A stretch of 64,000 nt of DNA from Donghicola tyrosinivorans (GTDB taxonomy: Bacteria > Pseudomonadota > Alphaproteobacteria > Rhodobacterales > Rhodobacteraceae). The position numbers and the translations under genes were made by a program. The stretch is taken from positions 62,001 through 126,000 of the forward strand of contig NZ_PVTQ01000011.1 in assembly GCF_003003355.1 (NCBI RefSeq), in the 5' to 3' direction. Positions 4,444-31,252 of this stretch are shown piece after piece; within the stretch, counting starts at the first letter, position 1, and every line of letters starts with the position of its first letter. The notes beneath the pieces were generated by a model, which saw only the letters and a list, made by a program, of their open reading frames with translations, was not told the DNA's origin and did no database searches.

Positions 4444-4473
4444 ATCGCTCCTCCTGAAGACGCAGTTTCCTGC

Positions 4474-4520
4474 TTCCTCTTGATAGAAATACTCCGGGGG
4501 TCCGGGGGCAGCGCCCCCGG
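4474..4520 (+). repeat. Dispersed intergenic repeat with GC hairpin, copy 1
   Basis: The AT part (TTGATAGAAATACTCC) is followed by a strong hairpin, CCGGGGGC-AGC-GCCCCCGG at 4502-4520. Related elements occur near 30342, 30501 and 45325-45485. It sits between coxL and coxM, where the hairpin could shape mRNA stability or polarity. Confidence 0.6.
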
Positions 4521-4536
4521 TCCGTCCTCTCGCTTC

Positions 4537-6900
4537 TTAGTCTTGCATCGCAGCCCAAACGCGCTGGGGCGAAAGGGGCATGTCGATATGCAGCACATTC
4601 TTGCCACCCGACTGGATCGCATCGATCACCGCGTTGACCACCGCCGGCGGCGAGCCGATCGCGCCGGCCTCGCCGCAGCCCTTCACACCCAGTGGGTTGT
4701 GGGTACAGGGCGTCTGGCAGGAATGGTCAACCACGTAGAACGGCACGTCATCCGCGCGCGGCATCGCATAGTCCATGTAGGACGCGGACAAGAGCTGGCC
4801 TTCGTCGTCATAGACGCAGTTCTCCAGCAGAGCCTGACCGATCCCCTGTGCGATACCGCCATGAACCTGACCTTCCACGATCATCGGGTTCACAACGTTG
4901 CCGAAATCGTCAGCAGCGGCGAACCGTTCGATGGTGACCTTGCCGGTATCGGGGTCCAACTCGACCTCGCAACAATAGGCACCCGACGGGTAGGTAAAGT
5001 TCGAGGGGTCATAGAACGCGGTCTCTTCCAGACCGGGCTCGATGTCCTCAAGCGGGTAGTTGTGGGGCACATAGGCCGCCAGGGTCACATCGCCCCAAGC
5101 CACCGACTTGTCGGTCCCTGCCACGGTGAACTTGCCGTCCTTGACCTCAATATCGGCTTCGGAAGCTTCCAGCAGGTGGCTGGCGATCTTCTTGGCCTTC
5201 TTGATGATCTTCTCGGTGGCTTTCACCATCGCGCTGCCGCAAACCGCCAACGAACGCGAGCCATAGGTGCCCATGCCGAAGGGGATTTTCGAGCTGTCGC
5301 CGTGGACGATCTCGATCATCGATTCGTCGATGCCAAGCATATCCGCGACAACCTGCGGGAAGGCTGTTTCATGGCCCTGACCGTGGCTGTGCGCCCCGAC
5401 CATGACGCTGATGGTGCCGGTGGCGTTCACGCGCACGGTGGCCGCATCATACAGACCGGCACGGGCACCCAGCTGACCCACAAGGTTTGACGGCGCGATG
5501 CCGCAAGCCTCGATGTAGCAGTTCACGCCAAGACCACGCAGTTTGCCGCTGGCTTCCGACGCTTTGCGGCGCGCTTCAAAGCCTGCAAGGTCTGCGACCT
5601 CTTCCAGCTTATCCATGGTCGCAAAGTAGTTGCCGGTGTCATATTCGACCGCCACAGGCGTTGCGTAGGGGAACTCGGAAATGAAGTTCTGACGGCGCAG
5701 GGCAATCGGATCAACGCCAAGCTCACGGGCAGCTTTGTCCACCACACGCTCCAGCTGGTAGGTCGCTTCGGGACGACCTGCCCCGCGATATGCGTCCACC
5801 GGTACGGTGTTGGTGAAGACAGCCTTCACGTTCACATAGATCAGAGGCGTTCTGTAGTTGCCCGCCATCAGCGTGCCGTGCAGCCACGTGGGAACCGAAG
5901 GCGCGAATGTGGACAGGTAAGCGCCCATGTTCGCGTAGGTCTCGGTCCGGATCGCGGTGAAGTTATTGTCCGCATCCAGTGCCAGTTCGATCTTGGTGAC
6001 GTGGTCGCGACCATGGGCGTCCGACATGAACGCTTCCGAACGCGAGGCCGTCCATTTCACCGGACGGTTACACTTCTTGGCCGCAAAGGTGCAGAAGGCC
6101 TCTTCCGCGTAGTGGAAGATCTTGGTGCCAAAGCCACCACCCACATCGGGGGCCACCACGCGCAGCTTGTGCTCGGGGATCCCCAGAACAAAGGCGCCCA
6201 TCAGCAGACGGATCACGTGGGGGTTCTGGCTGGTGGTGTAGAGGGTCGACTCGTCGTTGGCACGGCTATAGTCGCCCACCGCCACACGAGGCTCCATCGG
6301 GTTCGCAACCAGACGGTTGTTCACCAGCTCCAGCGTGGTCACATGCGCGGCGTTCTTGATCGCCTCATCAACGGCTGCCTTGTTGTCCTCGACGAAGCCC
6401 CAGTCATAGCAGAGATTCGAGGTCAGATCGTCGTGAACCTTGGGCGCGCCTTCTTGCAGAGCGGCCTTCATGTTTACAACAGCGGGCAGTTCTTCGATGT
6501 CCAGCTCGATCGCTTCGGCCGCGTCGCGGGCCTCTTGCAAGCTGTCAGCGACAACGGCGGCGATGGGATCACCGACGTGACGGACCTTGCCCTGCGCCAG
6601 AACCGGGTGGGCCGGTTCCTGCATGGGCTGGCCGTGACGGTCGGTGACCTGCCATCCGCAAGGCAGACCGCCGACACCCTCAAAGTCCGCACCGGTAAAG
6701 ATGCGGACAACGCCTGGCATCTCTGCTGCGGCGCTGGTGTCGATGCTGTTGATCTTTCCGTGCGCTACGTCCGAGCGCAGGAAATACACATAAGCCTGAC
6801 CGTAAATGTTGATGTCGTCGGTATAATTACCGGCTCCGGTTAGGAACCGCACGTCTTCGCGGCGTTTGCTGGCCGCGCCAATGCCTGAATCCTTCGGCAT
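4537..6900 (-). CDS. coxL: Form II CO-dehydrogenase-type molybdenum large subunit CoxL
   Basis: 787-residue catalytic subunit of a molybdopterin hydroxylase. The active-site loop reads AYRGAGR at residues 370-376, the form II signature, not the AYxCSFR loop of proven form I CO dehydrogenases. Other family features include GGGFGTK for cofactor binding, QGQGHET-type molybdopterin contacts ([13 protein letters not shown]) and the C-terminal [12 protein letters not shown] with the conserved Glu. Start ATG at 6900 has an upstream GGGAGGA-type site. It lies between coxS and coxM. Oxidation of CO itself is uncertain for form II enzymes; maturation genes coxD, coxE and coxF are not in the window. Confidence 0.93.
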
Positions 6901-6970
6901 GTCCTTCCTCCCTAAATCTCAGTGGGTTGGAACCACCTAGCTCCGGCGCCTCCCCGCGCCGGCGCCACGA

Positions 6971-7456
6971 TTACTCAGCTGCGATCTTGCTAACGTCCTG
7001 ACCGGCAGCGGCCAGGATGGCTTTCACAATGTTGTGGTAGCCGGTGCAGCGGCAGATGTTGCCTTCCAGATAATGACGCACGTCGGCTTCGGTCGGGTTG
7101 GGGTTGTCCTTCAGCAAAGCTGCTGCCGACATCACCATGCCCGGAGTGCAGAAACCGCACTGAAGACCGTGGTTGTCCTGAAATGCCTGCTGGATCGGGT
7201 GCATCGTCCCGTCCGCTTCGGCCATTCCTTCGATGGTGGTGATGTCTGCGCCATCGGCCTCGCTGGCCATCATGGTGCAGGACTTCACCGCCTTGCCGTT
7301 CACGTGCACGACGCAAGCGCCGCACTGGCTGGTGTCACATCCTACGTGCGTGCCTGTCAGGCGCTGATCTTCACGCAGAAACTCAACCAGCAAACGGTTG
7401 CCGGGAACCTCTCCGCTGACCTTACGACCGTTTACGGTCATGGTTACTTTTGCCAT
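6971..7456 (-). CDS. coxS: CO-dehydrogenase-type 2Fe-2S small subunit CoxS
   Basis: 161-residue iron-sulfur subunit passing electrons from molybdopterin to FAD. The N-terminal plant-ferredoxin cluster uses Cys40, Cys45, Cys48 and Cys60. The C-terminal helical-domain cluster uses Cys100, Cys103 (QCGFCTPG), Cys135 and Cys137 (NICRCTGY). All eight ligands are present and the length is typical. It lies between coxG and coxL in a minus-strand operon, with an AGGGAGGAG ribosome site before ATG at 7456. Confidence 0.95.
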
Positions 7457-7507
7457 CTAACTCCTCCCTAGCTGGCGAAATGCTTGGTACTTTCAACTAA
7501 GAGCCTG

Positions 7508-8065
7508 TCACGAGAACAGGCGCTTGAAAAATCCTTTCTTCTCTTCTTGTGGTTCTTCGGCGGCTGCGGGCGCAGGTGCGGCAGCGGGGGCAGCAGTCTC
7601 CTCAGGTGCTGCGGCTGCGGCGGGGCCTTCGACCGTCTCTTGGAAATTCTGGAAGAACTGGTCAGCCATCTTCTTGGCGAACCCGTCGATCACGCGGCTG
7701 CCGAGCTGTGCCAGCTTGCCGCCGACCTTCGCATCCACGTCATAGGTCAGCAGCGTGCCACCATTGCCAGAAGGGGCCAGCGTTACCGCAGCCTCGCCTT
7801 TGGCAAAGCCTGCCGCGCCGCCCTTCCCCTCGCCCGACAGCTTCAACGAGCTGGGGGCAACCATGTCGCTCAGGGTCACTTTGCCGCTGAACTTCGCCTT
7901 CACCGGTCCGACCTTCTGGACCACGGTGGCATCAAACCCTTCTTCGGGGCTGCCTTCCATGGCCTCGCAGCCGGGAACGCACTGTTTCAAGACTTCCGGA
8001 TCCAGGATCGCCTTCCAGACCTCCTCGGGGCTGGCGGCGATCTCGCGCGAGTCGCTCATTTGCAT
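7508..8065 (-). CDS. coxG: CoxG-like SRPBCC-domain protein
   Basis: 185-residue protein. The START/SRPBCC-type domain (residues 1-145; opening SREIAASPEEVWKAILDP) is typical of CoxG, which helps recruit CO dehydrogenase to the membrane or carries quinone. It is followed by an Ala/Pro-rich linker and a short basic-aromatic tail KKGFFKRLFS that could anchor at the membrane. First gene of the cox operon. ATG at 8065 is 9-10 bases from GGAGGAG; a second in-frame ATG at 8059 is less well placed. An 18-base element at 8118-8135 lies 53 bases upstream. Confidence 0.88.
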   Translation of the reverse strand: MQMSDSREIAASPEEVWKAILDPEVLKQCVPGCEAMEGSPEEGFDATVVQKVGPVKAKFSGKVTLSDMVAPSSLKLSGEGKGGAAGFAKGEAAVTLAPSGNGGTLLTYDVDAKVGGKLAQLGSRVIDGFAKKMADQFFQNFQETVEGPAAAAAPEETAAPAAAPAPAAAEEPQEEKKGFFKRLFS

Positions 8066-8150: not shown

Positions 8151-9062
8151 TTACCGGACCGGCATTTGATGCGTTAGGCCGTATTCCGCATAGATTTCCG
8201 CGATCCGACCGTTTTGCAGGCCCTCTGCGATTGCGTCATCTACTTGATATCCCAGCTGTTTATACGCGAAATGCACCGCAACGCCCAAGGTCCACTTGGA
8301 CACGGCGAAACCGGCCAGCGGTGGCTGGTGAATTCCGATGGAATCCGTCGATCCGAACTGCAACTGACTGATCGGTCCCATCACAGCGCTTACTTCGTGC
8401 GCAGACAGCCCTTCCATCGCGTCCAAAGTGTCAGGATAGCGGTGGATATTGTCCCCAAGCTGCCCCCCAGCCATGCCCGTCAGATAAAAATCGGAGATCG
8501 AGTCATTCTCGACCCCGACCGCATCATAGCGGAAATAGGCAGGAACAGGTTTGTCTTCGGGATAGGTTGCCTTGTCATAGGCAATCGCGATGCTTTCAGC
8601 CGCATACTGACCGGTAAAGGTCACTTGCTCGACCCGGCATTTGAACTGGCGGTCATAGGGAATACGCATCATGACGTTCGACACGCGCCCTCCGACAACC
8701 GGACCCTTCCAGACGTTGTTACGCAGGTCCGCATCCAGATTTTCATCAGCCATGACGAAATTGAACTGGGCCTTTACGCCGATGTAGTCGGCGATCATAC
8801 GGGCAATCTCGATGTCCACCCCTTTGGGTTTTCCACCTTCCTGCCAGCTGTAGGGAGCGTAATCGTCGTAAACCGCGAACAGCATATGTCCTTGTTCGAG
8901 AATCTGGTCAAAGTCCTGACCAACGATATCCCGACCTGCGTTCTGCGGTTTGGGTTGCGGCACGTAGTCCGCACAGGGGTCCTGTGCATGGGCGGCAGTT
9001 ACGCCGCCCATGACAAAGGCTATAACAAGGACAGAGAGAGAACGGGTCCTTGCTGCCGTCAT
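8151..9062 (-). CDS. Quinoprotein-dehydrogenase-associated periplasmic binding protein (MoxJ-like)
   Basis: 303-residue secreted protein of the extracellular solute-binding family 3 fold, in the subfamily found beside PQQ dehydrogenases (MoxJ/XoxJ-like). A signal peptide ends at AHAQ. The Cys of DPCADYVPQPKP is near the mature N-terminus and the family-3 pattern is seen in GVDIEIARMIADYIGV. MoxJ-type proteins are thought to help activate the apo-dehydrogenase (family knowledge). Its ATG directly follows the pedF stop, so the two are co-transcribed. A terminator at 8085-8116 closes the unit. Confidence 0.88.
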   Translation of the reverse strand: MTAARTRSLSVLVIAFVMGGVTAAHAQDPCADYVPQPKPQNAGRDIVGQDFDQILEQGHMLFAVYDDYAPYSWQEGGKPKGVDIEIARMIADYIGVKAQFNFVMADENLDADLRNNVWKGPVVGGRVSNVMMRIPYDRQFKCRVEQVTFTGQYAAESIAIAYDKATYPEDKPVPAYFRYDAVGVENDSISDFYLTGMAGGQLGDNIHRYPDTLDAMEGLSAHEVSAVMGPISQLQFGSTDSIGIHQPPLAGFAVSKWTLGVAVHFAYKQLGYQVDDAIAEGLQNGRIAEIYAEYGLTHQMPVR

Positions 9063-9761
9063 TTAGTGCGCCGCCGACAGGCCGATGGTCAGGGTCTCGG
9101 CCGCCTTGTGGTAGGCATTGTCGCCGCCTGCTTCCAGGATCAGGGCCGCGCGACGTGCGATGCTGTCTGCGACAGGTGCGCCCGACAGGGTCTCGATGCC
9201 GCCAGCAACTTCGGTCAGCTCATCATGAATAGCTTGCGCGTCGCCTTCGCCACCTTTGGCCATGGCAACCAGCTGGTCACGCAGAGCGGTCAGTTCGCCG
9301 GTCAGTTCTTCGATCTGGTCTGTATCGGGACGGGTTTCTATGTAAGTACGGATCGCCCAAGCGGCTTCCTGACCCAGCAGCTCGCCAAAGGCGGGCATCT
9401 TGGTAGTGCCGTTCTGGGTGTAGCCAAAGCGGAAACGCTCGATGAACCATTCATCACCGAATTCTTCAGCTTCAAGGAAGCGCAGGTCAGGGGCAAGACC
9501 ACCCGAGACCACGCCAAGACCGTGGCAGCGTGCGCAGTTCTGGTTGTAGCCAGAATCGCCGATCGCAACGGCTTTGGCCCAAACTTCTTGACCGGCAGCT
9601 TCTGCACGGTAGGGGTTTTCGGTCAGCCATTCTTCGCCAACAGCGGGCAGACCGGCGGTATCTACAGCCTGAGGCGCGACATCACCGTGCGCAAGCGCAA
9701 GAGTGGCGGTCAAGGCAAGGGTAACCCCGGCAAGGGTCAGCGACGAGGGTTTCGTGAGCAT
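9063..9761 (-). CDS. pedF: Cytochrome c-550 PedF-like
   Basis: Periplasmic class I cytochrome c, 232 residues from ATG at 9761, chosen because CCAGGAGGAGATCCCA precedes it and a signal peptide starts there (an upstream in-frame ATG at 9806 lacks one). The mature N-terminus AHGDVAPQAVDTAGLP and NCARCHGL with one CxxCH heme site match PedF, the electron acceptor of PQQ ethanol dehydrogenases. MPAFGELL supplies the likely Met ligand. A C-terminal extension after about residue 155 looks helical. First gene of the minus-strand unit; divergent from the plus-strand ABC operon across 196 bases. Confidence 0.88.
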   Translation of the reverse strand: MLTKPSSLTLAGVTLALTATLALAHGDVAPQAVDTAGLPAVGEEWLTENPYRAEAAGQEVWAKAVAIGDSGYNQNCARCHGLGVVSGGLAPDLRFLEAEEFGDEWFIERFRFGYTQNGTTKMPAFGELLGQEAAWAIRTYIETRPDTDQIEELTGELTALRDQLVAMAKGGEGDAQAIHDELTEVAGGIETLSGAPVADSIARRAALILEAGGDNAYHKAAETLTIGLSAAH

Positions 9762-9957
9762 TGGGATCTCCTCCTGGTGCCGAATGCGTTTTTTTGCTTT
9801 TTGCATTTTTGTTTTTTCTTGTTCTAAATCGCCGCCCCCAGCGCGGCTATGCGACCTTGGTTGGGGATCGCCCCGTTCAAAGGGTCATAGGGCAGGACAT
9901 TGGTCGTATTTCACCCGCACCTGCGTATTCGTAGCGTGCAGGCAGGGAGGAATTTTC

Positions 9958-11130
9958 ATGCGCTTCACACCCCACGCTGCCGCTGTGGTTGCAGGGCTTT
10001 GCCCGCTTTCAGCCTATGCAGATGGGCTGGAGATCAACGTCCAGTTTTTACGACAGCAGACCGAGGCGATTGCCACGCTTTCGAATCTGGACCCGCGTCC
10101 CGAAGATCTGGCGATCCGCGGGGCCGAACTGGCGACGGTGGACAATGCGACCACCGGAAAATTCCTCAAACACACCTACAGCCTGACCCTGCATTACGTC
10201 CCCGTCGGCGGCGATGTTCTGGCCGAAGCAAAGGCCGCGCTGGCGCTTTCGGACCTGCTGGTCACGGATGTGGATGCGGCAACGCTGCTGCAAATCGCCG
10301 ATCTGCCCGAAGCCGCAGGTGCCCTGATCCTGAACGCCACCGCCGAGGACACCGCCTTGCGTGACGCAGACTGCCGCGCGAACGTCCTGCACACCGCGCC
10401 ATCTATGGCGATGCGGACCGATGCCTTGATGCAGTTCTTCCTCTTCAAGCGCTGGCCGCGCCTTGCCATGATCGAAGGCACCTACCCTGAGGATAAGGCA
10501 TTTGCCGCCGCCCTAAACCGCTCGGCCGAGAAGTTCGGGCTGGAGATCGGCGCAACCAAGACATGGGCTTTTGACGCCGACATGCGCCGCAACGCCGCCG
10601 CCGAGGTTCCCCTGTTCACCCAAGACCTGCGCGATCACGACGTGCTTCTGGTCGCCGATGAGGCCGATGATTTCGGGCGTTACCTGCCCTATAACACATG
10701 GCTGCCCCGCCCTGTTGCGGGCACCGAAGGGATCACCCCTCAGGTCTGGGCACCGGTGGTGGAACAATGGGGCGCAGCGCAACTGCATTCGCGGTTTGAG
10801 GATCTGGCCCACCGCAACATGGCCCCCGAAGACTATGGCGCGTGGGCCGCTCTCCGCAGCATTGGCGAGGCTGTGACCCGCACCGGCAAAACCGACGCCG
10901 CCAGCCTACGCACCTATATGCTGTCAGAGGATTTCGAACTGGGAGGCTTCAAGGGCTCGCCCCAGACCTTCCGCGACTGGAACGGCCAGATGCGCCAGCC
11001 GATCCCACTGGTCACCACCCGCGCGGTGGTGATGCAGGCCCCTCTTCCCGGTTTTCTGCACCAGACCAACGAACTCGACACTCTGGGCGTCGATGCGCCC
11101 GAAAGCACCTGCACTGCCTTCAAGGAATGA
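9958..11130 (+). CDS. ABC substrate-binding protein of PQQ alcohol dehydrogenase system
   Basis: 390-residue secreted binding protein of the branched-chain-amino-acid receptor-like group that accompanies PQQ alcohol dehydrogenases. Start ATG at 9958 follows GGCAGGGAGGAATTTTC and opens a signal peptide ending at AYA-DG. A longer in-frame extension upstream has no ribosome site and was not used. The terminal CTAF contains a Cys. It begins the plus-strand operon binding protein, propeller, unknown, ATPase, permease. Ligand unknown; proposed to serve alcohol or product handling, or dehydrogenase maturation. Confidence 0.82.
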   Translation: MRFTPHAAAVVAGLCPLSAYADGLEINVQFLRQQTEAIATLSNLDPRPEDLAIRGAELATVDNATTGKFLKHTYSLTLHYVPVGGDVLAEAKAALALSDLLVTDVDAATLLQIADLPEAAGALILNATAEDTALRDADCRANVLHTAPSMAMRTDALMQFFLFKRWPRLAMIEGTYPEDKAFAAALNRSAEKFGLEIGATKTWAFDADMRRNAAAEVPLFTQDLRDHDVLLVADEADDFGRYLPYNTWLPRPVAGTEGITPQVWAPVVEQWGAAQLHSRFEDLAHRNMAPEDYGAWAALRSIGEAVTRTGKTDAASLRTYMLSEDFELGGFKGSPQTFRDWNGQMRQPIPLVTTRAVVMQAPLPGFLHQTNELDTLGVDAPESTCTAFKE

Positions 11131-11132
11131 TC

Positions 11133-12098
11133 ATGCGTGTATCCACTCTTGCCCTGCTTGCCGCGATCACCGCGCAGCCTGTTCTGGCCGACGAAATCTG
11201 GGTGACCAACGAAAAGGACGACACCGTCAGCGTGATCGACATCGACACGATGGAGGTTACCCACACCTATGAAACCGGCGAGCGGCCCCGCGGCATCACC
11301 TTCAGCCACGACTACAAATACGTGTACATCTGTGCCTCGGACAGCGATGCGGTTCAGGTGATGGACCCCGCAACGGGCAAAATCCTGCACGATCTGCCCT
11401 CGGGCGAAGATCCCGAACAATTTGTGCTGCACCCCGACAACAAGCACCTCTACATCGCCAATGAGGACGACGCGATCACCACTGTGGTAGATGTGGAAAG
11501 TCGCACTGTGGTTGCCCAGATCGACGTGGGGATCGAGCCCGAAGGCATGGCGGTCTCGCCCGATGGTAAAATCGCCATCACCACCTCCGAGACCACCAAC
11601 ATGGCCCATTGGATCAACACGGAGACCCAAGAGTTGTTCGCCAACACGCTGGTCGATTCCCGCCCCCGCCACGCGGAATTCGTCAAGGATGGCGCAGAAA
11701 TGTGGGTCAGTTCAGAGATCGGCGGCAGCATTTCGGTCTTTGACACGGCAACCCAGACCGAAAAGGCGAAAATCCGGTTTGAACTGCCCAACATCCACCC
11801 CGACCGCATCCAGCCTGTGGGCTTTGAACTGGGCGAAGGGGACAAGTTTGCCTATGTGGCGCTGGGTCCGTCGAACCACATCGCCGTGTTGAACGCCGAG
11901 ACCTATGAGGTCGAGGATTACATCCTTGTGGGCCGCCGCGTCTGGCACATGGCCTTTAACGCGGACAAATCGCGCCTTTTCACCACCAACGGTATTTCCG
12001 GCGACGTGACCGTCGTCGATGTGGCCAAGCGCAAAGCGCTGAAGACCATCAAGGTTGGCCGCTTTCCTTGGGGCGCCGCCTTCCGCCCCACCAACTGA
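11133..12098 (+). CDS. PQQ-catabolism-associated beta-propeller (YVTN repeat) protein
   Basis: 321-residue periplasmic protein. After a signal peptide (MRVSTLALLAAITAQPVLA) come repeated propeller blades of about 42 residues with YVTN-like strands, for example IWVTNEKDDTVSVIDIDTM, VYICASDSDAVQVMD and LYIANEDDAITTVVD. ATG at 11133 is preferred because AAGGA lies 6 bases upstream; ATG at 11127, which overlaps the previous stop, would have no spacing. The family is a constant partner of PQQ alcohol dehydrogenase ABC genes; its exact role is not established. Confidence 0.88.
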   Translation: MRVSTLALLAAITAQPVLADEIWVTNEKDDTVSVIDIDTMEVTHTYETGERPRGITFSHDYKYVYICASDSDAVQVMDPATGKILHDLPSGEDPEQFVLHPDNKHLYIANEDDAITTVVDVESRTVVAQIDVGIEPEGMAVSPDGKIAITTSETTNMAHWINTETQELFANTLVDSRPRHAEFVKDGAEMWVSSEIGGSISVFDTATQTEKAKIRFELPNIHPDRIQPVGFELGEGDKFAYVALGPSNHIAVLNAETYEVEDYILVGRRVWHMAFNADKSRLFTTNGISGDVTVVDVAKRKALKTIKVGRFPWGAAFRPTN

Positions 12099-12123: not shown

Positions 12124-12579
12124 ATGAAGAAATTTATCGCGATGGCGGCTCTTGCCGCCACCCTGCCCCTTGCTGCTCTTGCGGATGACGACGGCGACGA
12201 CGATGCACCCCAGTTCGGTCTGGCAGGACTTTTGTCCGCCAAGAACAAACATGATCTGGAACCTATCCAGCTGAGCGCCGGCATGCCTTTGACACAGGCC
12301 CCTTGGGTGCTGAAATCGGGCAGCTACTATGAGTTCGAAATTCAGGGCGACGGCAGTCAGGAACTGGGTCTGGTCGGTCCCGAGTTCTTCCGCGCCATCT
12401 GGATCGACGAGATCGTCGTCGAAGGCCTTGAGATCCGCCCCTTGGGTCTTGATTCCATTGAGTTTGACGAAGCGGGTGAAATGGAAATAGGCTTCATAGC
12501 AATCAAGCCCGGTTCCTATTACCTCAAAATTCCGGGCTCCACCGGGGACTCCCAGAGACTGGAGATTACGATCGAATGA
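12124..12579 (+). CDS. Secreted protein of unknown function in PQQ operon
   Basis: 151 residues. A signal peptide MKKFIAMAALAATLPLAALA is followed by a very acidic start (DDDGDDDA). The remainder is beta-rich and has no Cys or His cluster after the acidic patch. It could be a cupredoxin-like fold without obvious copper ligands, but this is a guess. The ribosome site ACGAGGAAACC precedes ATG at 12124. It lies between the propeller and the ATPase, whose ATG overlaps its stop by 4 bases. I do not recognise the family. Confidence 0.75.
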   Translation: MKKFIAMAALAATLPLAALADDDGDDDAPQFGLAGLLSAKNKHDLEPIQLSAGMPLTQAPWVLKSGSYYEFEIQGDGSQELGLVGPEFFRAIWIDEIVVEGLEIRPLGLDSIEFDEAGEMEIGFIAIKPGSYYLKIPGSTGDSQRLEITIE

Positions 12580-13298
12580 CCAGCGGCCTCAGCGTCGAAA
12601 ATCTGGCCTACCGTTATGGGGCGAAAGAGGCGCTGAAAGGTGTCTCGTTCCAGCTTGAGGCAGGCGAATTCGGCGCGCTTTTGGGGCCTAACGGCGCGGG
12701 CAAGTCGACCCTGTTCAGCTTGCTCACGCGTCTTTTCACCGCGCCGCAAGGGCGGATATCGATCGCGGGCCATGACATGGGCCGCACACCCCGCGCCGCT
12801 TTGGCGCGGATGGGGGTAGTATTCCAAAGCTCGACTTTGGACATGGACCTGAGCGTCAAACAGAACCTGTCCTATTTCGCGGCCCTTCACGGCATCGCAG
12901 GGCGCGAGGCCGCCCGCAGATCCGATGGCGCGCTGGAACGGATGAACATGGCCGAGCGCGCCCATGAGCGGGTGCGCGACCTGAACGGAGGCCACCGACG
13001 CCGCACGGAAATAGCCCGCGCTTTGCTGCATGATCCGGCGGTGCTGCTGCTGGATGAGCCGACCGTCGGCCTGGATGCCGCCGCCCGCCAATCAATCACC
13101 AGCCATGTCCACCAGTTGTGCGCCGATCAGGGGCTGACCGTCCTTTGGGCGACCCACCTGACGGATGAGGTCTACGACAGTGACCATCTGGTCCTGCTGC
13201 ATCAGGGGCAAATCCTGCAAGATGGAAATGTCGGGGAATTACGCAGCGAATCAACCCTTTCCGACCACTTCCTCAACCTGACCGGAGCCCGCGCATGA
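12576..13298 (+). CDS. ABC transporter ATP-binding protein of PQQ alcohol dehydrogenase system
   Basis: 240-residue ATPase. Walker A is GPNGAGKST (near residues 38-46) and Walker B VLLLDEPTVGLD near residue 155. The signature reads LNGGHRRRTE instead of LSGGQ, a variant typical of the ATPase found with PQQ alcohol dehydrogenases. ATG overlaps the upstream stop, and its own stop overlaps the permease ATG. With the next gene it forms an ABC-2 type pair; direction of transport is unknown. Confidence 0.9.
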   Translation: MTSGLSVENLAYRYGAKEALKGVSFQLEAGEFGALLGPNGAGKSTLFSLLTRLFTAPQGRISIAGHDMGRTPRAALARMGVVFQSSTLDMDLSVKQNLSYFAALHGIAGREAARRSDGALERMNMAERAHERVRDLNGGHRRRTEIARALLHDPAVLLLDEPTVGLDAAARQSITSHVHQLCADQGLTVLWATHLTDEVYDSDHLVLLHQGQILQDGNVGELRSESTLSDHFLNLTGARA

Positions 13299-14089
13299 AC
13301 GCCTATCTCATCGCGCTGAGCGCCATCGTCAAACGCGAGGCGCTGCGCTTCCTGCACCAGCGCGAACGGTTTATCGCCGCCCTCGTGCGGCCTCTGGTGT
13401 GGCTTTTGGTCTTTGCCGCAGGGTTTCGCGCCGCGCTGGGTCTGTCGATCATTCCGCCCTATCAGACCTACATCACCTATGAGACCTACATCATCCCCGG
13501 CCTCTGCGGGATGATCCTGCTGTTCAACGGGATGCAAAGCAGCCTGTCGCTGGTCTATGACCGTGAGATGGGATCTATGCGGCTGTTGCTAACGGCTCCT
13601 TTGCCCCGTGGCTGGCTGCTGTTTGCGAAACTTTGCGGGTCCACGGCGATCTCGATCCTTCAGGTCTACACGTTCCTAGCGGTGGCATGGGCCTTTGACA
13701 TCATGCCCGACAGCCCTTGGGGCTATCTGGCCGTCCTGCCTGCCCTGCTGATCAGCGGTCTGATGCTGGGGGCGCTGGGGCTGGCCCTGTCCAGCCTGAT
13801 CCGCCAGCTTGAGAATTTCGCGGGCGTCATGAACTTTGTGATCTTTCCGATGTTCTTCCTGTCCTCGGCCCTCTACCCGCTTTGGAAGATGGCCGAAAGC
13901 TCGCCGCTATTGCGGGACATCTGCGCCCTGAACCCCTTCACCCACGGGGTCGAGCTGATCCGCTTTGCCCTCTACCTCAAGTTTGAACCCATCGCCCTGA
14001 TCTGGGTATTGGCATCGACCGCGGTGTTTATGGGGCTGGCGATCTGGGGCTATGATCCGGCCCGCGGCCTGACCCGCCGCAAGGGTTGA
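13295..14089 (+). CDS. ABC-2 type permease of PQQ alcohol dehydrogenase system (PedC-like)
   Basis: 264-residue membrane protein with about six hydrophobic helices and ABC-2 features: a MQSSLSLVYDREMGSMRLLL loop, and FPMFFLSSALYPLW preceding the last helices. It overlaps the ATPase gene by 4 bases and is last in the tightly coupled run. Resembles the PedC alcohol ABC permease group; ABC-2 permeases often export. Substrate not shown. Confidence 0.88.
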   Translation: MNAYLIALSAIVKREALRFLHQRERFIAALVRPLVWLLVFAAGFRAALGLSIIPPYQTYITYETYIIPGLCGMILLFNGMQSSLSLVYDREMGSMRLLLTAPLPRGWLLFAKLCGSTAISILQVYTFLAVAWAFDIMPDSPWGYLAVLPALLISGLMLGALGLALSSLIRQLENFAGVMNFVIFPMFFLSSALYPLWKMAESSPLLRDICALNPFTHGVELIRFALYLKFEPIALIWVLASTAVFMGLAIWGYDPARGLTRRKG

Positions 14090-16516: not shown

Positions 16517-16933
16517 ATGCACTATCTTAAAACTCTTGCCATTGCCGTCGCAACCGTCAGCGCCCTGCCCGCCGTTGCCGCCGAAAGCACCTTTGAAGCC
16601 GTGAAAATCAGCGCAGGTGAAACCCTGTTCGAGACCGAATGCCGCCGCTGCCACTCCCCCGACGCGGACAAAGAATCATACGGCCCGCCGCTGGAGAATA
16701 TCGTTGGCCGCGCCGCTGGCATGTCACCGGACTACGACTATTCGACAGCCCTTGAGGCATCGGGCATCGTCTGGACCCCTGCCGCCCTGCGCGCATGGAT
16801 GGAAGACAACGACGGCTTTATGCCCGGCACCAAAATGCGCCACGTGGGCATCGAAGACCGCACGGTTCAGGACTTTATCCTAGCCTATCTGGCTTCGATC
16901 ACCACGGTCGATAACAGCGCCGTATCGAAGTAA
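16517..16933 (+). CDS. Periplasmic cytochrome c (class I, c2/c550-like)
   Basis: 138-residue secreted cytochrome. Signal peptide to AVAAES, heme motif CRRCH at Cys42/Cys45/His46, and a downstream MPGTKM region supplying the Met ligand. AAGGAGG precedes ATG at 16517. It lies directly upstream of the PQQ dehydrogenase gene on the same strand, so it is a likely electron acceptor, alongside PedF, delivering electrons to the oxidase. A 6-base-pair hairpin follows the stop. Confidence 0.88.
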   Translation: MHYLKTLAIAVATVSALPAVAAESTFEAVKISAGETLFETECRRCHSPDADKESYGPPLENIVGRAAGMSPDYDYSTALEASGIVWTPAALRAWMEDNDGFMPGTKMRHVGIEDRTVQDFILAYLASITTVDNSAVSK

Positions 16934-17024
16934 AACACCCCCTTCGGACGGGGTGCCGAAAAGTTGATTTGCAGGTGCGGCGACTCAACGCATCCCGTCC
17001 GAAAGTTACTGTCAAGGCGACTGG

Positions 17025-17040
17025 GGTCGTACGACCTAAG
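17025..17040. promoter_or_regulatory. Palindromic operator candidate upstream of PQQ dehydrogenase
   Basis: GGTCGTACGACC (17025-17036) is a perfect 12-base palindrome, continuing into TAAG. TACGACC-TAAG recurs at 14092-14103 with one extra C, upstream of the Sel1-like gene. It is about 100 bases before the dehydrogenase ATG. A LuxR-type regulator is encoded downstream and is the natural candidate binder. Confidence 0.4.
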
Positions 17041-17138
17041 CCGTGTACCCGACGATGACCTGTTCCGTATACTAGCGATGTCAGAAGGCCGAACACCCCA
17101 TGCAAACGGCTTTCCGTACATCGTCTAGGGAGGACAGA

Positions 17139-18902
17139 ATGAAAAAATTCATCGCCGCAATGTCGGTAAGCGCTCTGGCTGTGACCGCAGCCTACGCGGG
17201 CGTGACCGAAGAGGATCTGGCCAACGACCAGGCCTCGACCGACCAGGTCGTGACCAACGGCATGGGCCGTCACCTTCAGCGCTATTCGCCGCTGGAAACC
17301 CTGAACAAGGACAACGTCAAGAACCTGGTTCCCGCATGGGCCTTCAGCCTTGGTGGTGAAAAGCAGCGCGGTCAGGAAACCCAGCCGCTGGTTTATGACG
17401 GCGTGATGTATATCACCGGTTCCTATTCGCGCCTTTACGCGATCGACGTGAACACCGGCGAAGAGCTGTGGCAGTACGATGCCCGTCTTCCCGAAGGCAT
17501 CCTGCCCTGCTGTGACGTGATCAACCGCGGCGCGGCCATCTATGGCGACAACATCTACTTCGGCACGCTGGACGCACGTATCGTTGCGCTGGACCTGAAG
17601 ACCGGTGACGTTGTCTGGCGCGACAAGATCGCTGACTACAAAGCTGGCTACAGCTACACCGCAGCACCCCTGATCGTTGACGGTCTGGTTGTGACCGGGA
17701 ACTCGGGCGGTGAATTCGGTATCGTAGGCGAGGTTCAGGCCCGCAACGCAGAGACCGGCGAAATCGTCTGGACCCGTCCGATGATCGAAGGCCACATGGG
17801 CACCCTGAACGGTCAGGAATCGACCATGACCGGTACCCTGAACGCGACCTGGCCCGGCGATCTGTGGAAGACCGGCGGCGGCGCAACCTGGCTGGGTGGC
17901 TCGTACGACATCGACACCGATACCCTGATCTTCGGCGCGGGTAACCCTGCTCCCTGGAACAGCTGGCTGCGCGGCGCGGGCGAGCCCACCGAAGGCAATG
18001 TTGGCGACAACCTGTACGCTGCAAGCCGCGTCGGCATCGACCCCAAGACCGGCGACATCAAGTGGCACTTCCAGACCACGCCCCGCGAAGGCTGGGACTA
18101 TGACGGTGTGAACGAAGTCGTTGCCTACACCGACCGCGGCGGCAACAAGCGCTACGCGACTGCTGACCGTAACGGCTACTTCTACGTTCTGAACCGCGAA
18201 GACGGTGCCTTTGTTTCGGCAGCACCCTTCGTGAAGGACATCACCTGGGCCAACGGTATCGATGAGACCGGTCGTCCGATCTTCAACGAACCCAACCGTC
18301 CCGGTAACCCCGCGAACGCGACCGATGGCAACAAAGGCGAAGTCGTCTTCTCGTCGCCCTCGTTCCTTGGCGGTAAGAACTGGATGCCGATGGCCTTCAG
18401 CCAGAAGACCGGCAACTTCTACGTTCCCTCGAATGAGTGGGGCATGGACATCTGGAACGAGCCTGTAACCTACAAAAAGGGCGCGGCTTACCTGGGTTCG
18501 GGCTTCACCATCAAGCCGAACTACGAAGACCACATCGGTTCGCTCAAAGCGATCGACCCCGACACCGGCAAGTGGGTTTGGGAATACAAGAACGACGCAC
18601 CCCTGTGGGGCGGCGTGATGACCACCGCAGGCGGTCTGGTATTCTTCGGCACCCCCGAGGGCAAGTTCATCGCTCTGGATGACGCCACCGGCGAAGAACT
18701 GTGGTCGTTCCAGACCGGCTCGGGCATCGTTGGCCAGCCCATCACCTGGGAAATGGAAGGCGAGCAGTACGTCTCGGTCGTTTCGGGCTGGGGTGGCGCG
18801 GTTCCGCTCTGGGGCGGCGAAGTGGCCAAGAAAGTGAACTACCTGAACCAGGGTGGCACTGTCTGGACCTTCAAACTGCCCAAGCAGCTGGCATCGAACT
18901 GA
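17139..18902 (+). CDS. PQQ-dependent alcohol dehydrogenase, ExaA/PedE/PedH family, lanthanide-type
   Basis: 587-residue periplasmic quinoprotein that oxidises alcohols and reduces cytochrome c. Signal peptide [20 protein letters not shown]. The start at 17139 follows AGGGAGGACAGA. The eight-blade propeller shows repeated W-motifs such as [15 protein letters not shown] and [15 protein letters not shown] vicinal disulfide pair is at Cys124-Cys125. VEGHMG-like [10 protein letters not shown] and GAGNPAPWN match ethanol dehydrogenases (ExaA, PedE, PedH) better than methanol-type MxaF/XoxF. The catalytic Asp320 is followed by Asp322 in WDYDG; an Asp at that place is the known mark of lanthanide-using enzymes. 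Single gene with its own terminator. Confidence 0.93.
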
Positions 18903-18931
18903 TCCACTGATCTAACGGTCAAACATTTGGA

Positions 18932-18964
18932 AACGCCCGAAGATTTTCTTCGGGCGTTTTCCTT
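18932..18964 (+). terminator. Intrinsic terminator after PQQ dehydrogenase
   Basis: AACGCCCGAAG (18932-18942) pairs perfectly with CTTCGGGCGTT (18948-18958), loop ATTTT, followed by TTCCTTTT. Confidence 0.9.
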
Positions 18965-19081: not shown

Positions 19082-19765
19082 ATGTCTCAGGTCAGCGCAG
19101 CAACACATTTGTCCGGCAACGCCTTGGTGGTCGACGATCACCCCCTGTTCTGCGACGCCCTGACCCTGACGCTGAAATCGATTTCCGAATTTGGCACCAT
19201 CCACACCGCGGGCACCCTTGAGGCCGCCTTGGATGAGGTCAGCGCCGACAGCGATATCCGTGCGATCATTCTGGATTTGAACCTGCCCGACGTGAACGGC
19301 CTGGACGGCTTGGTCCGCCTACGCACGGCCGCGCCGCGTGCCAAGATCATCATCGCGTCCTCAATGTCCGACAACCGCATGATCAGCCGCGCCATCAAGG
19401 CCGGTGCAGATGGCTTTGTTCCCAAGCAAGCGCAACGCGCCGTGTTCCAGCAAGCTTTCGACACCGTGCGCACGGGCAAACACTTTGTTCCCGAAGGGTT
19501 TATCGATCCCGATGGCGAGTCGGCCACGCAGGATGATGCACTGCAACGCCTTGGCACCTTGACCAACCAGCAGGCCCGCATCCTGAACCTGATCTGCGAG
19601 GGCAAGCTGAACAAACAGATCGCCTATGACCTGTCGATCGCGGAAACCACCGTCAAAGCCCATGTCACCGCAATCATGCGGAAACTTGGCGTGCATTCGC
19701 GCACTCAGGCCGTTCTGATCGCGCAAGAGGCCCACTTTAACCGGGTCTTGCCAACGAATGAGTAA
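19082..19765 (+). CDS. LuxR-family response regulator
   Basis: 227-residue two-component regulator. An N-terminal receiver domain (residues 12-130) has phospho-acceptor Asp65 in IILDLNLPDVNG. A C-terminal LuxR/NarL helix-turn-helix (about 160-220) contains QARILNLICEGKLNKQIAYD and AETTVKAHVTAIMRKLGVHS. It is adjacent to the PQQ dehydrogenase and upstream of a FIST protein and kinase, the arrangement of ErbR/AgmR-type activators of quinoprotein ethanol oxidation in pseudomonads. Likely activates the PQQ locus (inference). Confidence 0.88.
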   Translation: MSQVSAATHLSGNALVVDDHPLFCDALTLTLKSISEFGTIHTAGTLEAALDEVSADSDIRAIILDLNLPDVNGLDGLVRLRTAAPRAKIIIASSMSDNRMISRAIKAGADGFVPKQAQRAVFQQAFDTVRTGKHFVPEGFIDPDGESATQDDALQRLGTLTNQQARILNLICEGKLNKQIAYDLSIAETTVKAHVTAIMRKLGVHSRTQAVLIAQEAHFNRVLPTNE

Positions 19766-19808
19766 TCGCTCATCCTCACGCAACTAAAGTACAGAGGACA
19801 TCGGTCTA

Positions 19809-20990
19809 GTGAACGAAGCGCCACCACGCTTCGCCAGGGAGGGGACCGAAGACAGTAAGGCAGTGTGCGTCGCACAGGTCTTTTGTGATGAGCTGGCGCC
19901 TGTAGAGGAGATCAAGCGCCAGTTCGGATCAGAGCCTATGGCGCTCGTGTGTTTGTTTTCAGCTCCCTGCGCGGATTTCAACGGCCTGATCATGGCCGCC
20001 CAATCTTCTTTCGGAGATGCCGATATCGTCGCCTGTACCACAGCGGGCGAGCTTGGCCGTGCGGGATATGAGGAAAAGCAGATCATCGCGGTGGGCTTCC
20101 CTGCCCGCTATTTCTCGGCCATCACCTTTGCCTTGGAAGACCTGAAAGCGCTGGATGATCAGAACGTTATCGATTCTATCATTCAAAAGCGCATGGCCCT
20201 TGCGCAACTGGCCCCTGACCGTCCCCATGAATTCGCCTTCCTCTTGGTGGACGGCCTGTCCTTGTCGGAAGAGAACCTGACCACCGCGCTGGCCTCGGGT
20301 CTGGGGCCCATGCCACTTTTCGGTGGCTCGGCTGGCGACGGGATCGATTTCCGCCAGACATGGCTGGCCTGCAACGGCCAGATCATGAAGGACGCCGCCA
20401 TCCTGACCATGGTGCGCAGCCTCTGCCCCGTCCGTGTTTTCAGCCATGACAATCTGGCCCCGACCCAGGCCCGCATGGTCGTCACCAAGGCCGATCCTGA
20501 GCGCCGCATCGTGCAAGAGATCAACGCCGAGCCAGCAGCAGCCGAATATGCCCGCCTTTTGGGCAAAGACCCCAACCAGTTGGACCCGTTCATCTTTGCC
20601 GAACACCCTGTCGTGGTGCGTCTTGGCGAAAGCCATCACGTCCGCGCCATCCAGCGGGTCAATGAACACGGGGAATTGGTCTTCTTTTCCGCCATCAACG
20701 AAGGCATGGTTCTGACCCTTGCCGAACATCTTGATATTGCGGCACATCTGGAAAGCGGCTTAGATGAGCTATACCGCAACGGTGCGCCGGACATGATCCT
20801 TGGCTGTGACTGCGTGTTGCGCCGGATCGCTGCCGACCAGCGGCAAAAAACCCGCGAGATTTCGCAGATACTCGCAGATAAAAAAGTTATTGGTTTCTCG
20901 ACTTATGGTGAACAGATTGGTGCCCTGCATGTGAACCAGACCCTCACGGGTGTGGCGATCTATCCTCCGCCCCGCGACGAAAGCAACTGA
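19809..20990 (+). CDS. FIST-domain sensor protein (NosP-like)
   Basis: 393-residue soluble protein with FIST N domain (about 25-225; CTTAGELGRAGYEEKQIIAV, PLFGGSAGDG) and FIST C domain (about 230-375; GCDCVLRRIA, VIGFSTYGEQIG). The start is GTG at 19809. Its stop overlaps the ATG of the histidine kinase. In pseudomonads a FIST protein beside the NahK kinase (NosP) is a heme-based nitric-oxide sensor, and that pair lies near the exa genes, as here. Alternatively it binds a small molecule such as an amino acid. Confidence 0.85.
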   Translation: MNEAPPRFAREGTEDSKAVCVAQVFCDELAPVEEIKRQFGSEPMALVCLFSAPCADFNGLIMAAQSSFGDADIVACTTAGELGRAGYEEKQIIAVGFPARYFSAITFALEDLKALDDQNVIDSIIQKRMALAQLAPDRPHEFAFLLVDGLSLSEENLTTALASGLGPMPLFGGSAGDGIDFRQTWLACNGQIMKDAAILTMVRSLCPVRVFSHDNLAPTQARMVVTKADPERRIVQEINAEPAAAEYARLLGKDPNQLDPFIFAEHPVVVRLGESHHVRAIQRVNEHGELVFFSAINEGMVLTLAEHLDIAAHLESGLDELYRNGAPDMILGCDCVLRRIAADQRQKTREISQILADKKVIGFSTYGEQIGALHVNQTLTGVAIYPPPRDESN

Positions 20991-23197
20991 TGACCCTGAT
21001 CAACCCGTCCGACAGTCTAGAACGGCAGAATGAAAAACTCCTGAAGATCGTCGACGCGCTGATGAGCCGTGTGGAATACGGCACAGCGCAATCGAATGCC
21101 GCCTATGCGCAATTCGAACGGGCGGCCTTGCTGGAAAAGCGGGTGCGCGAACGCACGCTGGAACTGGAAAGCACCCTAGAGCTGCTGCACGACAGCAACT
21201 CGGAACTGGCTAAAGCCCACGCCGAAACCGAAGCGGCCCGCCGCAACCTTGCCGACGCGATCGAGGCGGTCTCTGAAGGCTTTGCCCTGTTTGACCCCGA
21301 AGACGTTCTGGTTATGTGCAACTCGCGCTTTTGTCGCGATTTCAAAGACCTCAGCCCGCTGTTGTCCCCCGGCCTGCCCTTTTCCGACTATGTGCGCCAT
21401 ATCGGAAAATCTGCCTATCTGGCCCTGCCAGAGGATGAAACGCCCGCCTCTTGGGCCGCCCGCCGCATCCGCCGCCATATGGATCGGCACGTCATGTTCA
21501 ACGTCGAGCTTAGCGGCGACCGCTGGCTGCAAGTGTCGGAACATCGCACCAGCAACGGCGGTACCGTGGTCCTGCAAACCGACGTCACCGACATCATGCG
21601 GATCGAGCGGCAGGAACGCGCCCGCCTGAAAGACAAACAGACCCGCGTCATCCGCGCCACGCTGGACCACCTGAACCAAGGGGTCTGCGTCTTTGACGAA
21701 AACGCGCAGCTTGTGGGCTGGAACCACAAGATAAGCCAGCTGCTGTCGGTCCCTGTTCGCCGTCTGGTAATCGGCGCGTCCTTCGGTGGCCTGCTGGACC
21801 GTTTGGGCGATGATGTACAGTTCAGCCGCGGTATTGACCTTGAAGGATTCCGTAACTGGGCGCTGGTGAAAGGTGCCCGCGCCCCGATTTCCTTTGAGGT
21901 ACGCCGTGGCGGCATGACCCTGCAAATCTTCGGCCGCGGAATGCCGGATCAGGGCTTTGTCATTTCCTGCACCGATGTGACCGCCGAACGGGAAGCCGCG
22001 CAAAAGCTGTATGAGTTGAACGAAATCCTCGAACAGCGCGTGATGGAGCGCACGCTGGAACTAGAGGACGCCCTATCCGCCGCCGAACGGGCCAACGCCT
22101 CGAAATCCCGCTTTGTGGCTGCTGCCAGCCACGATCTGCTGCAACCCTTGTCGGCAGCAAAGCTGTTCATCTCGTCCCTCTCGGACAAGGCGACCGACCC
22201 CGATGACATGGCGGTTCTGTCCAAGGCCGAGACCGCACTTACGGGGGCCGAGCAGATTATCGATGCGCTGCTGGACATCTCCAAACTGGAGTCCGACGGT
22301 CTGCGTTTCGACGTGCGCCGGTTCTCGCTGCGGGAAATCCTTGCGCCCCTGCGCGATGAGATGACCATCCACGCCGTTCGCAAAGGGTTGGAACTGACCG
22401 TTGTGGACAGCAATCTGGTGGTGGAAAGCGATCCCGCCTACATGCGCCGCATCGTGCGCAATCTGATCTCGAACGCGATCCGCTATACCGCCACGGGCCG
22501 CGTGTTGGTCGGGGTACGCCGTAACGGAGGCTCGGCCCGGATCGAGGTCTGGGACACCGGCCCCGGCATCGCCGAGGAAAACCAGAACACCATCTTTGAG
22601 GAGTTCAAGCGGCTGGACACCAAAGCCAGCGCCAACGAAGGTCTGGGCCTTGGCCTTGCCATCGTGGAGCGCGCCTGCGCCCGTCTAGGCCACCCCCTTG
22701 GCCTCTGGTCCGAAGTGGATCAGGGCAGCTGCTTTATGGTGAACGTCCCCGTCGCATCCGAGGCCGATCCCGCCCGCCCGAAAAGCGCCCGCATGACCCT
22801 GCCCATCGGGCTGGAACAGTCAGGCCTGATCGTCCTGCTGGTGGAAAATGACCCGCAACTGCGCCGTGCGATCTCAATTCTGGTGGAAAGCTGGGGCGTT
22901 AACGTGATCGAGGCCGAAGACGCCGCATCGGCGCTGGATCTGTTAACGGATTTGCAAATCCGCCCCGATGCCTTGCTGCTGGACTACCAACTGGGTCCCG
23001 GCATGTCGGGGATCGAACTTTACAGCGCGGTTCAGGACAGTTTGGGGCCAATCCCCTGCGCCATCATCTCGGCCGACCGGTCAACCGATCTGCGCCAAAC
23101 CTGCAAATCTATGGGGCTAGAGCTGCTGCTGAAGCCTCTGGACCGCCATAAGCTGGGGCATATGCTGCATACTGCGGCGCAGGCCATCACCCTTTAA
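20990..23197 (+). CDS. Hybrid sensor histidine kinase with PAS domains (NahK-like)
   Basis: 735-residue cytoplasmic hybrid kinase with no membrane segment. An N-terminal coiled coil (about 40-95) is followed by a PAS domain (about 100-205), a second PAS domain (about 225-335) and a linking coiled coil. HisKA has His381 in AASHDLLQPLSAAKLF. The HATPase shows the N box (RNLISNAIRYTATG) and DTGPGI. The C-terminal receiver has Asp665 in ALLLDYQLGPGMSG. The upstream overlapping FIST gene is the likely input partner and the LuxR regulator at 19082 the likely output. Organisation matches NahK/ErcS-type kinases. Confidence 0.88.
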   Translation: MTLINPSDSLERQNEKLLKIVDALMSRVEYGTAQSNAAYAQFERAALLEKRVRERTLELESTLELLHDSNSELAKAHAETEAARRNLADAIEAVSEGFALFDPEDVLVMCNSRFCRDFKDLSPLLSPGLPFSDYVRHIGKSAYLALPEDETPASWAARRIRRHMDRHVMFNVELSGDRWLQVSEHRTSNGGTVVLQTDVTDIMRIERQERARLKDKQTRVIRATLDHLNQGVCVFDENAQLVGWNHKISQLLSVPVRRLVIGASFGGLLDRLGDDVQFSRGIDLEGFRNWALVKGARAPISFEVRRGGMTLQIFGRGMPDQGFVISCTDVTAEREAAQKLYELNEILEQRVMERTLELEDALSAAERANASKSRFVAAASHDLLQPLSAAKLFISSLSDKATDPDDMAVLSKAETALTGAEQIIDALLDISKLESDGLRFDVRRFSLREILAPLRDEMTIHAVRKGLELTVVDSNLVVESDPAYMRRIVRNLISNAIRYTATGRVLVGVRRNGGSARIEVWDTGPGIAEENQNTIFEEFKRLDTKASANEGLGLGLAIVERACARLGHPLGLWSEVDQGSCFMVNVPVASEADPARPKSARMTLPIGLEQSGLIVLLVENDPQLRRAISILVESWGVNVIEAEDAASALDLLTDLQIRPDALLLDYQLGPGMSGIELYSAVQDSLGPIPCAIISADRSTDLRQTCKSMGLELLLKPLDRHKLGHMLHTAAQAITL

Positions 23198-27086: not shown

Positions 27087-27133
27087 CTGTGCATCCCGCC
27101 TTTTGCGCCGCGCTGACCTGCCAGCCGCAATGA

Positions 27134-27162
27134 TGTCTGAGTGGTTTTGACCCCGACAGACA
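27134..27162. promoter_or_regulatory. Candidate TetR operator
   Basis: TGTCTG (27134-27139) and CAGACA (27157-27162) form an inverted repeat in the gap between the divergent QuiC-type and TetR genes. Short arms, so weak evidence. Confidence 0.3.
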
Positions 27163-27236
27163 ATCACTTTGTTCCCATCGGTTAATTTCGTGATATAGAA
27201 GAGCCGTCACCATTTCCAGCCTGCATTTCGATAGCC

Positions 27237-31201: not shown

Positions 31202-31252
31202 AGGACGATCCTTCCGCTTGACAAGGTAGGGCACCTTCCCTCAGGTGGGCGC

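Follow-up and report, generated by a model that had tools for sequence, protein, structure and literature searches.

In alphaproteobacteria, some regulator-kinase pairs carry a third gene, T, between the two partners, as in AfdR-AfdT-AfdS, RfdR-RfdT-RfdS (R. sphaeroides) and FlhR-orf2-FlhS (P. denitrificans). According to the accessible text of the papers, AfdRTS and FlhRS respond to formaldehyde and control genes of one-carbon (C1) and formaldehyde oxidation, and the T genes are of unclear role (PMC4776306, PMC8879981); how AfdRS and RfdRS sense formaldehyde is there stated to be unknown, both being said to be without conserved cysteines (PMC4776306). In P. putida, PP_2663 (GfdT/NosP), PP_2664 (pedS1) and PP_2665 (agmR, the gene of PedR1) adjoin pedABC (PMC12997753, its Table 1, from the part available), and the same three families form the ErbR-NosP-NahK set of P. 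aeruginosa; both sets have pedABC and pyrroloquinoline quinone (PQQ) dehydrogenases nearby. Here we describe a corresponding trio, consisting of a LuxR/NarL-type response regulator, a FIST protein and a hybrid histidine kinase, in a 64,000-nucleotide stretch of Donghicola tyrosinivorans (RefSeq assembly GCF_003003355.1, contig NZ_PVTQ01000011.1, positions 62,001 to 126,000), which we call the window. We regard the trio as the sister of AfdRTS/FlhR-orf2-FlhS in ped clusters and as the counterpart, in alphaproteobacteria, of AgmR-GfdT/NosP-PedS1; there is good evidence that it controls alcohol oxidation.

The pseudomonad parallel had been drawn in a sequence-only reading of the window, and it is borne out both by the P. 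putida genes and by three of 13 wider loci (L171, L172 and L174; L numbers denote our loci), all over the NosP cut-off, in which a regulator and pedABC-type genes adjoin NosP and the kinase; a fourth, L181, has a regulator and a CXXCW-motif gene. In L171, L172 and L174, however, the regulator is convergent with the NosP-kinase pair, whereas in the window it is co-directional, and the window proteins fall under the NosP and NahK cut-offs, with the FIST protein in a separate clade. A near parallel, AfdRTS/FlhRS, was missed by that reading. Its T genes may well encode FIST proteins, given their position between regulator and kinase and the use of the name GfdT for FIST proteins. AfdRTS and FlhRS control adhI or flhA-fghA, whereas the window trio sits in a ped cluster, a gfa-type copy lying elsewhere in the genome. 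No glutathione (GSH)-formaldehyde genes were found beside the window trio, and they are present beside the second trio; because a review, in its accessible part, places flhRS away from flhA-fghA, such neighbours are not a strict criterion.

Linkage of the trio to PQQ dehydrogenases

The genes follow one another in the order regulator, FIST, kinase (Table 1), and the FIST stop codon TGA (20988-20990) shares a base with the kinase ATG in the junction TGATG, so that both coordinates and junction agree with the row and one-base overlap proposed from the sequence. All kinase motifs are in place (H-box 380, N-box 491, G-boxes 522 and 551, REC Asp motif 663), and the regulator scores 161 bits against the ErdR model, under its cut-off of 390. 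The trio closes a ped cluster that runs from pedF and a periplasmic binding protein, both on the minus strand, through PedA1, PedA2, a small conserved protein, PedB, PedC and a c550-type cytochrome to the dehydrogenase; PedF, PedA1, PedA2, PedB and PedC each score over their curated cut-offs. The dehydrogenase beside the trio, likewise noticed earlier, passes the TIGR03075 cut-off with room to spare. A second Asp is a mark of lanthanide PQQ dehydrogenases, and the enzyme has it; by sequence it is of the PedH type and lanthanide-type. Its closest PDB matches, 6zcv and 6zcw (which we take to be PedH of P. putida), carry WDFDGVNE; 1flg carries WDFSGNNE.

A draw of 81 genomes of the order, all from the window's own family, was scored for FIST (NosP model, E <= 1e-50) and for PQQ dehydrogenase (E <= 1e-100). 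FIST is present in 35 and the dehydrogenase in 26 of them, and every one of these 26 also holds FIST, as against 9 of the 55 genomes without the dehydrogenase (Fisher 6e-14, kinship ignored). At 19 of the 40 FIST loci a PQQ dehydrogenase is found no more than 25 kb away (about 0.015 expected for each), and at ten of the 40 it is directly upstream on the same strand, ~1.0-1.2 kb before the FIST match. The linkage of trio and dehydrogenase is beyond chance, and the proposed link to quinoprotein alcohol oxidation stands. In the same draw gfa occurs in nine genomes, all with FIST, and in five of these the FIST match begins ~0.9 kb past gfa.

Plasmids of Ruegeria THAF33, Tateyamaria, Sulfitobacter, Pseudosulfitobacter and Leisingera carry near-colinear ped clusters with the trio, their FIST proteins being annotated by domain only; the cluster edges differ, with pqq genes in Sulfitobacter and an aldehyde dehydrogenase in Leisingera and Ruegeria. 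A protein search with the window FIST, which unlike the genome draw is biased toward its near relatives, found 70 loci. The order regulator-FIST-kinase is kept in 69 of them, the exception being L072, a distant Bacteroidetes FIST.

A quick tree was made of 141 FIST proteins from 150 FIST-bearing loci, nine having been dropped (repeats or partial copies of included loci, and the split L070). The alphaproteobacterial rows fall into a clade with gfa-type loci (13 rows) and a clade B that holds the window (102 rows, support 99). Most of the deep branches of clade B stand beside a dehydrogenase (L159, L073, L076, L077, L131 and L138, some forks being weakly supported), and this context therefore looks ancestral, with later moves. 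Five repeat rows were kept in the tree and removed from a context census of clade B, in which 20 of 97 rows have a dehydrogenase, 12 a molybdenum hydroxylase and the window both, within flanks of 10 kb at some loci and ~3.5 kb at others. The broader notion that every relative lies at PQQ genes was rejected, a dehydrogenase being found within 10 kb in 7 of the 70 protein-found loci and either enzyme in 33 of the 97 rows. A third context is seen in Marivita (L014, L019, L026, L030 and L048), where the trio stands behind a Liv-type ATP-binding cassette (ABC) transporter; downstream, several of these loci have a 148-aa gene with no family match, an EnvZ-like kinase and a metallo-beta-lactamase-fold gene. 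The FIST gene of Roseivivax halotolerans (L070:9815-11162) is broken over two frames, and the FIST stretch of L042 contains one stop codon.

A candidate operator and the proposed circuit

A motif search in the upstream regions of 18 of 23 dehydrogenase genes (L074, L076, L077, L078 and L095, of other dehydrogenase types or incomplete, were excluded) gave the consensus TACGACCAA(n)GT(n)CAATA(c)C; the scoring matrix was built from 16 upstreams, leaving out the near-copies L005 and L123. By design the search assigns a single site to every sequence, so the evidence lies in where the sites fall and how they score. For the 16 non-redundant upstreams the motif score is 471.9, compared to a maximum of 277.5 in 20 shuffled sets, the site is placed 95-121 bp ahead of the start codon in each, and leave-one-out scores range between 10.4 and 36.1. 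The window site scores 24.8 when left out, the top of the window (runner-up 11.6), and is the sole exact match in the 4.68 Mb genome to a core pattern that was chosen after the site had been seen. A search of the window for the palindrome with up to two mismatches gave chance-level results, its five matches being reached by 8 of 100 shuffles.

Since homologous promoters share descent, occurrences at other genes weigh more. In a scan from which seven loci were excluded, the motif appears at 16 bits or more three times before cytochromes (0.00 expected) and three times before the regulator (0.03 expected). Matrix matches were seen before c550 (L003, L004) and pedF (L003, L005, L028, L073, L077, L176) and, at 14 bits or more, before the regulator (L065, L075, L110, L113). 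Before CoxG, scores of 10 bits or more were obtained at 7 of 18 loci (0.06 expected) and the best match lies at 60-68 bp in 12 of the 18; 19 loci had been named for this count, L004 has no CoxG match, and repeats and L005 were not entered. All five plasmid ped loci outside the training set carry the motif before the dehydrogenase at 21.5 to 34.0 bits, the site of one of them (L196) being shared with a training locus. Many loci gave no match of 8 or more, among them L074, L076, L078, L079, L006-L008 and several Marivita loci. The genome's own gfa/XoxF locus has no operator (best 5.5 and 9.1), so a regulator there would use another.

We give a probability of roughly 0.65 to a circuit in which the cassette controls periplasmic alcohol oxidation as follows. 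The FIST protein would sense a small molecule and set the activity of the hybrid kinase, which would phosphorylate the LuxR-type regulator at Asp65; the regulator, in turn, would bind TACGACC-type operators before the PedH-type dehydrogenase and before partner genes for electron transfer or aldehyde oxidation. The genes, their conserved linkage, the motif and the near-invariant residues are observed; we infer the phosphotransfer, the pairing of regulator and motif, and the signal. The trio is probably a separate transcript with its own promoter, because a terminator-like hairpin separates the dehydrogenase from the regulator gene; the hairpin is not among the sites listed by a consensus scan, and a promoter scan gave scores no higher than shuffled sequences. 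The operator motif offers a handle for predicting regulons in Rhodobacterales.

Several observations weigh against this circuit. There is no strong operator before the trio in the window (best at 19024, score 7.0), and none before CoxG in the window (best -3.8) or before the THAF33 molybdenum hydroxylase (best 2.1), whose locus (L191) has no site over 7.8. Conservation of the motif in homologous promoters is partly common descent. The trio is portable: the 7 of 70 loci mentioned above are the only protein-found ones with a dehydrogenase within 10 kb, 24 of the 70 have a Liv-type ABC transporter nearby instead, and 64 of the 97 clade-B rows show neither a PQQ dehydrogenase nor a molybdenum hydroxylase in the examined flank. 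Finally, in an rfdT deletion mutant of R. sphaeroides the expression of adhI with formaldehyde was unchanged, as the available text reports (PMC4776306). The portability, the hairpin ahead of the trio and the missing strong site would all fit a trio that is merely a neighbour of the ped cluster and has other targets. We regard this as improbable, given that dehydrogenase and FIST co-occur in all 26 genomes, that the deep branches of clade B mostly adjoin the dehydrogenase, and that the motif stands at the dehydrogenase and, at some loci, at the regulator promoter.

The FIST protein and its possible signal

From the sequence alone, nitric oxide (NO) or a metabolite had been proposed as the signal; the NO half is not supported, and the metabolite is the better half. 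The sole NCBIfam match of the window FIST is NosP (NF041558), at 382 bits, and it has both FIST N and FIST C, the domains required of NosP. NosP proteins of Burkholderia and Pseudomonas are reported, in the accessible parts of the papers, to bind heme and to control kinases in answer to NO (PMC12570481, PMC11784011); the genome carries nirK, which is compatible with an NO sensor, and His374, present in 139 of 141 rows, is a possible ligand. A heme-based sensor of NO (or of heme) like NosP, placing alcohol oxidation under NO control, nevertheless appears unlikely to us. The window FIST is under the NosP cut-off of 450, which is passed in none of the 81 genomes of the order, and lies outside the clade that holds ten of the 12 over-cut-off proteins of a phylum sample (the other two, L152 and L153, branch elsewhere, L153 closer to the alphaproteobacterial rows); NosP membership was rejected on these grounds. 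Position 215, at most a putative heme-binding site, is His in all ten rows of that clade and Asn in the window protein. FIST is not significantly tied to nirK/nirS, being found in 13 of 23 genomes with and 22 of 58 without these genes (p 0.14), and the sister systems respond to formaldehyde. The kinase, too, is under both related models, with 384 bits for NF041831 (NahK; cut-off 1500) and 360 for near_NosP_CTERM (cut-off 400).

The signal might instead reach the kinase directly, its two PAS_7 stretches sensing alcohol, redox or quinone state while the FIST protein is merely a scaffold or modulator. The unaffected adhI of the rfdT mutant would fit this, as would the report, in the available text, that deletion of pedS1 in P. 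putida altered pedF promoter output depending on substrate (PMC12997753). We give it odds well short of even. All but one of the 70 loci keep FIST and kinase together, and the residues of the FIST site hardly vary; moreover, R. sphaeroides has two T genes, as far as the source tells, so a single deletion may be masked.

Within the FIST protein, conservation across the 141 rows is nearly complete for C76 (139), C335 (140), E368 (139) and H374, which gives this middle gene two nearly invariant cysteines, and in seven very different FIST proteins the C335 column is the sole invariant cysteine and the E368 column the sole invariant glutamate. In a fold search with an AlphaFold model of the window FIST (predicted local distance difference test, pLDDT, 86), human FBXO22 came out on top (Z 19.4-20.9), the next matches being at 12.5 and lower. 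Aldehyde compounds are bound by C326 of FBXO22 as a hemithioacetal, and the ubiquitination that they drive is lost in the E362A mutant (PMC13316043); an aldehyde adduct at Cys326 is also described in PMC11208438, in both cases in the available parts of the text. The spacing of the pair is 36 in FBXO22, 33 in the window (C335/E368) and 36 in the Bacteroidetes protein L072 (C319/E355). FBXO22, however, is a ubiquitin-ligase subunit with 12% identity, the residue pair is matched by spacing, and sequence searches for FBXO22 with the window FIST, an A2 profile and L072 found no match; a search of one open-access library found no link between bacterial FIST proteins and aldehydes.

The FBXO22-like fold and the Cys/Glu pair make aldehyde capture by Cys335 a concrete and testable reading. 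Of the possible signals we favour an aldehyde product, captured reversibly by Cys335 with Glu368, as a tentative proposal that we would not back at even odds, and we are a shade more reserved about its extension to bacterial FIST proteins of this family (GfdT, AfdT/RfdT, NosP-like), in which a Glu368-activated Cys335 might reversibly bind formaldehyde, or the dehydrogenase's aldehyde, as a hemithioacetal. One further point counts against the sensing step: Cys335 and Glu368 are kept in eight of eight very different FIST proteins, including ones outside alcohol loci, so these residues do not single out aldehydes. If the proposal is right, the sensor so far missing from the AfdRS/FlhRS formaldehyde systems would be in hand, FIST domains would share one chemistry in bacteria and man, and the presence of the trio at PQQ dehydrogenases, at GSH-formaldehyde loci and at molybdenum hydroxylases would be explained. 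A single cysteine substitution could then test a question in methylotrophy and lanthanide-type alcohol oxidation, and the interpretation of NosP proteins as NO sensors would need re-examination. The trio, then, probably tells a marine bacterium when to burn alcohols, perhaps by sensing the resulting aldehyde rather than NO.

In a Pantoea agglomerans plasmid (L184:1429-4134) FIST is found inside a methyl-accepting chemotaxis protein, adjoining an NAD(P)-dependent alcohol dehydrogenase, and retains the Cys and Glu of the FIST C site.

The second trio and the neighbouring genes

Two FIST genes are present in the genome, along with two PQQ dehydrogenases that exceed the cut-off. On contig C2, the second trio stands in the order pqqE-C-B, gfa, regulator, FIST, kinase, a SoxYZ-like gene (a weak match, 72 bits), a metallohydrolase and a class-III alcohol dehydrogenase (ADH) that runs into the contig end. 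Contig C15 opens with a class-III ADH tail, followed by FghA, a cytochrome and a XoxF-like dehydrogenase, and the two contigs may join; copies of both ADH ends also occur at other contig ends. A single stretch of S. meliloti pSymB holds regulator-FIST-kinase, SoxYZ, metallohydrolase, class-III ADH, fghA, a cytochrome and a PQQ dehydrogenase, and Ruegeria THAF33 has one trio of each kind. The split ADH is seen at the C2 end, the C3 start, C12 and C15; its first half turns up at two contig ends and its tail in two places, so that this region probably contains a repeat or exists in two copies.

Table 1. Features of the trio, the ped cluster and the adjoining operon in the window
Feature	Position	Strand	Remarks
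LuxR/NarL-type response regulator	19082..19765	+	Pfam Response_reg and GerE; phospho-acceptor Asp65
FIST protein (GfdT/NosP-like)	19809..20990	+	GTG start; Pfam FIST N 142 bits, FIST C 70 bits
Hybrid histidine kinase	20990..23197	+	PAS_7-PAS_7-HisKA-HATPase_c-REC
Terminator-like hairpin, T-rich tail	18929..18961	+	between dehydrogenase and trio; -24.3 kcal/mol, z -6.0
PedH-type PQQ alcohol dehydrogenase	17136..18902	+	TIGR03075 757 bits (cut-off 480); motif WDYDGVNE
Candidate operator	17020..17049	+	core TACGACC, perfect palindrome GGTCGTACGACC; centre ~101 bp before dehydrogenase start
c550-type cytochrome	16517..16933	+	Pfam Cytochrom_C; Cyt550 model 67 bits, under cut-off 240
PedC permease	13295..14089	+	TIGR03861 430 bits (cut-off 241)
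PedB ABC ATPase	12576..13298	+	TIGR03864 348 bits (cut-off 302)
Conserved ped-cluster protein	12124..12579	+	no Pfam/NCBIfam match; homologues in L004, L047, L060, L073, L176
PedA2 beta-propeller	11130..12098	+	TIGR03866 515 bits (cut-off 287)
PedA1, PQQ-system ABC binding protein	9958..11130	+	TIGR03863 484 bits (cut-off 414)
Weak operator-like site before pedF	9889..9918	-	score 8.9; three unrelated window sites score 11.2-11.6
Cytochrome c-550 PedF	9063..9806	-	TIGR04494 187 bits (cut-off 122)
Periplasmic binding protein adjoining pedF	8151..9062	-	no NCBIfam match; homologues adjoin pedF elsewhere
Molybdenum-hydroxylase operon CoxG-CoxS-CoxL-CoxM	3658..8065	-	behind pedF; CoxL motif AYRGAGR

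Homologues of the periplasmic binding protein adjoin pedF in L003, L005, L028, L047, L060 and L073 and, by annotation, in L193, L195 and L196. The CoxG-S-L-M operon is homologous to the one adjoining the trio in Ruegeria THAF33 (pTHAF33_a). Its CoxL is under the cut-offs of both the glyceraldehyde dehydrogenase model (645 bits; 790) and the CO dehydrogenase model (620 bits; 991), and its closest PDB match is a CO dehydrogenase CoxL. The motif AYRGAGR is presumably a form-II mark, and an aldehyde is a plausible substrate. Next to this operon, on the plus strand (634-3593), the window has genes for a 4Fe-4S (Fer4_5) protein and an ApbE flavinyl transferase; in Leisingera (L195:1-1134) a 4Fe-4S gene and a flavin mononucleotide (FMN)-transferase gene likewise adjoin the ped cluster.

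Farther along the window, a Cobalamin riboswitch (31238-31471, plus strand, 94.6 bits) precedes cobW and cobN genes, with CbiA/GATase_3-type and CobO-type genes on the opposite strand. A gene on the minus strand (25200-27167) encodes a xylose-isomerase-like barrel fused to an HPPD N-terminal domain, a fusion that we take to be the one seen in some dehydroshikimate dehydratases.

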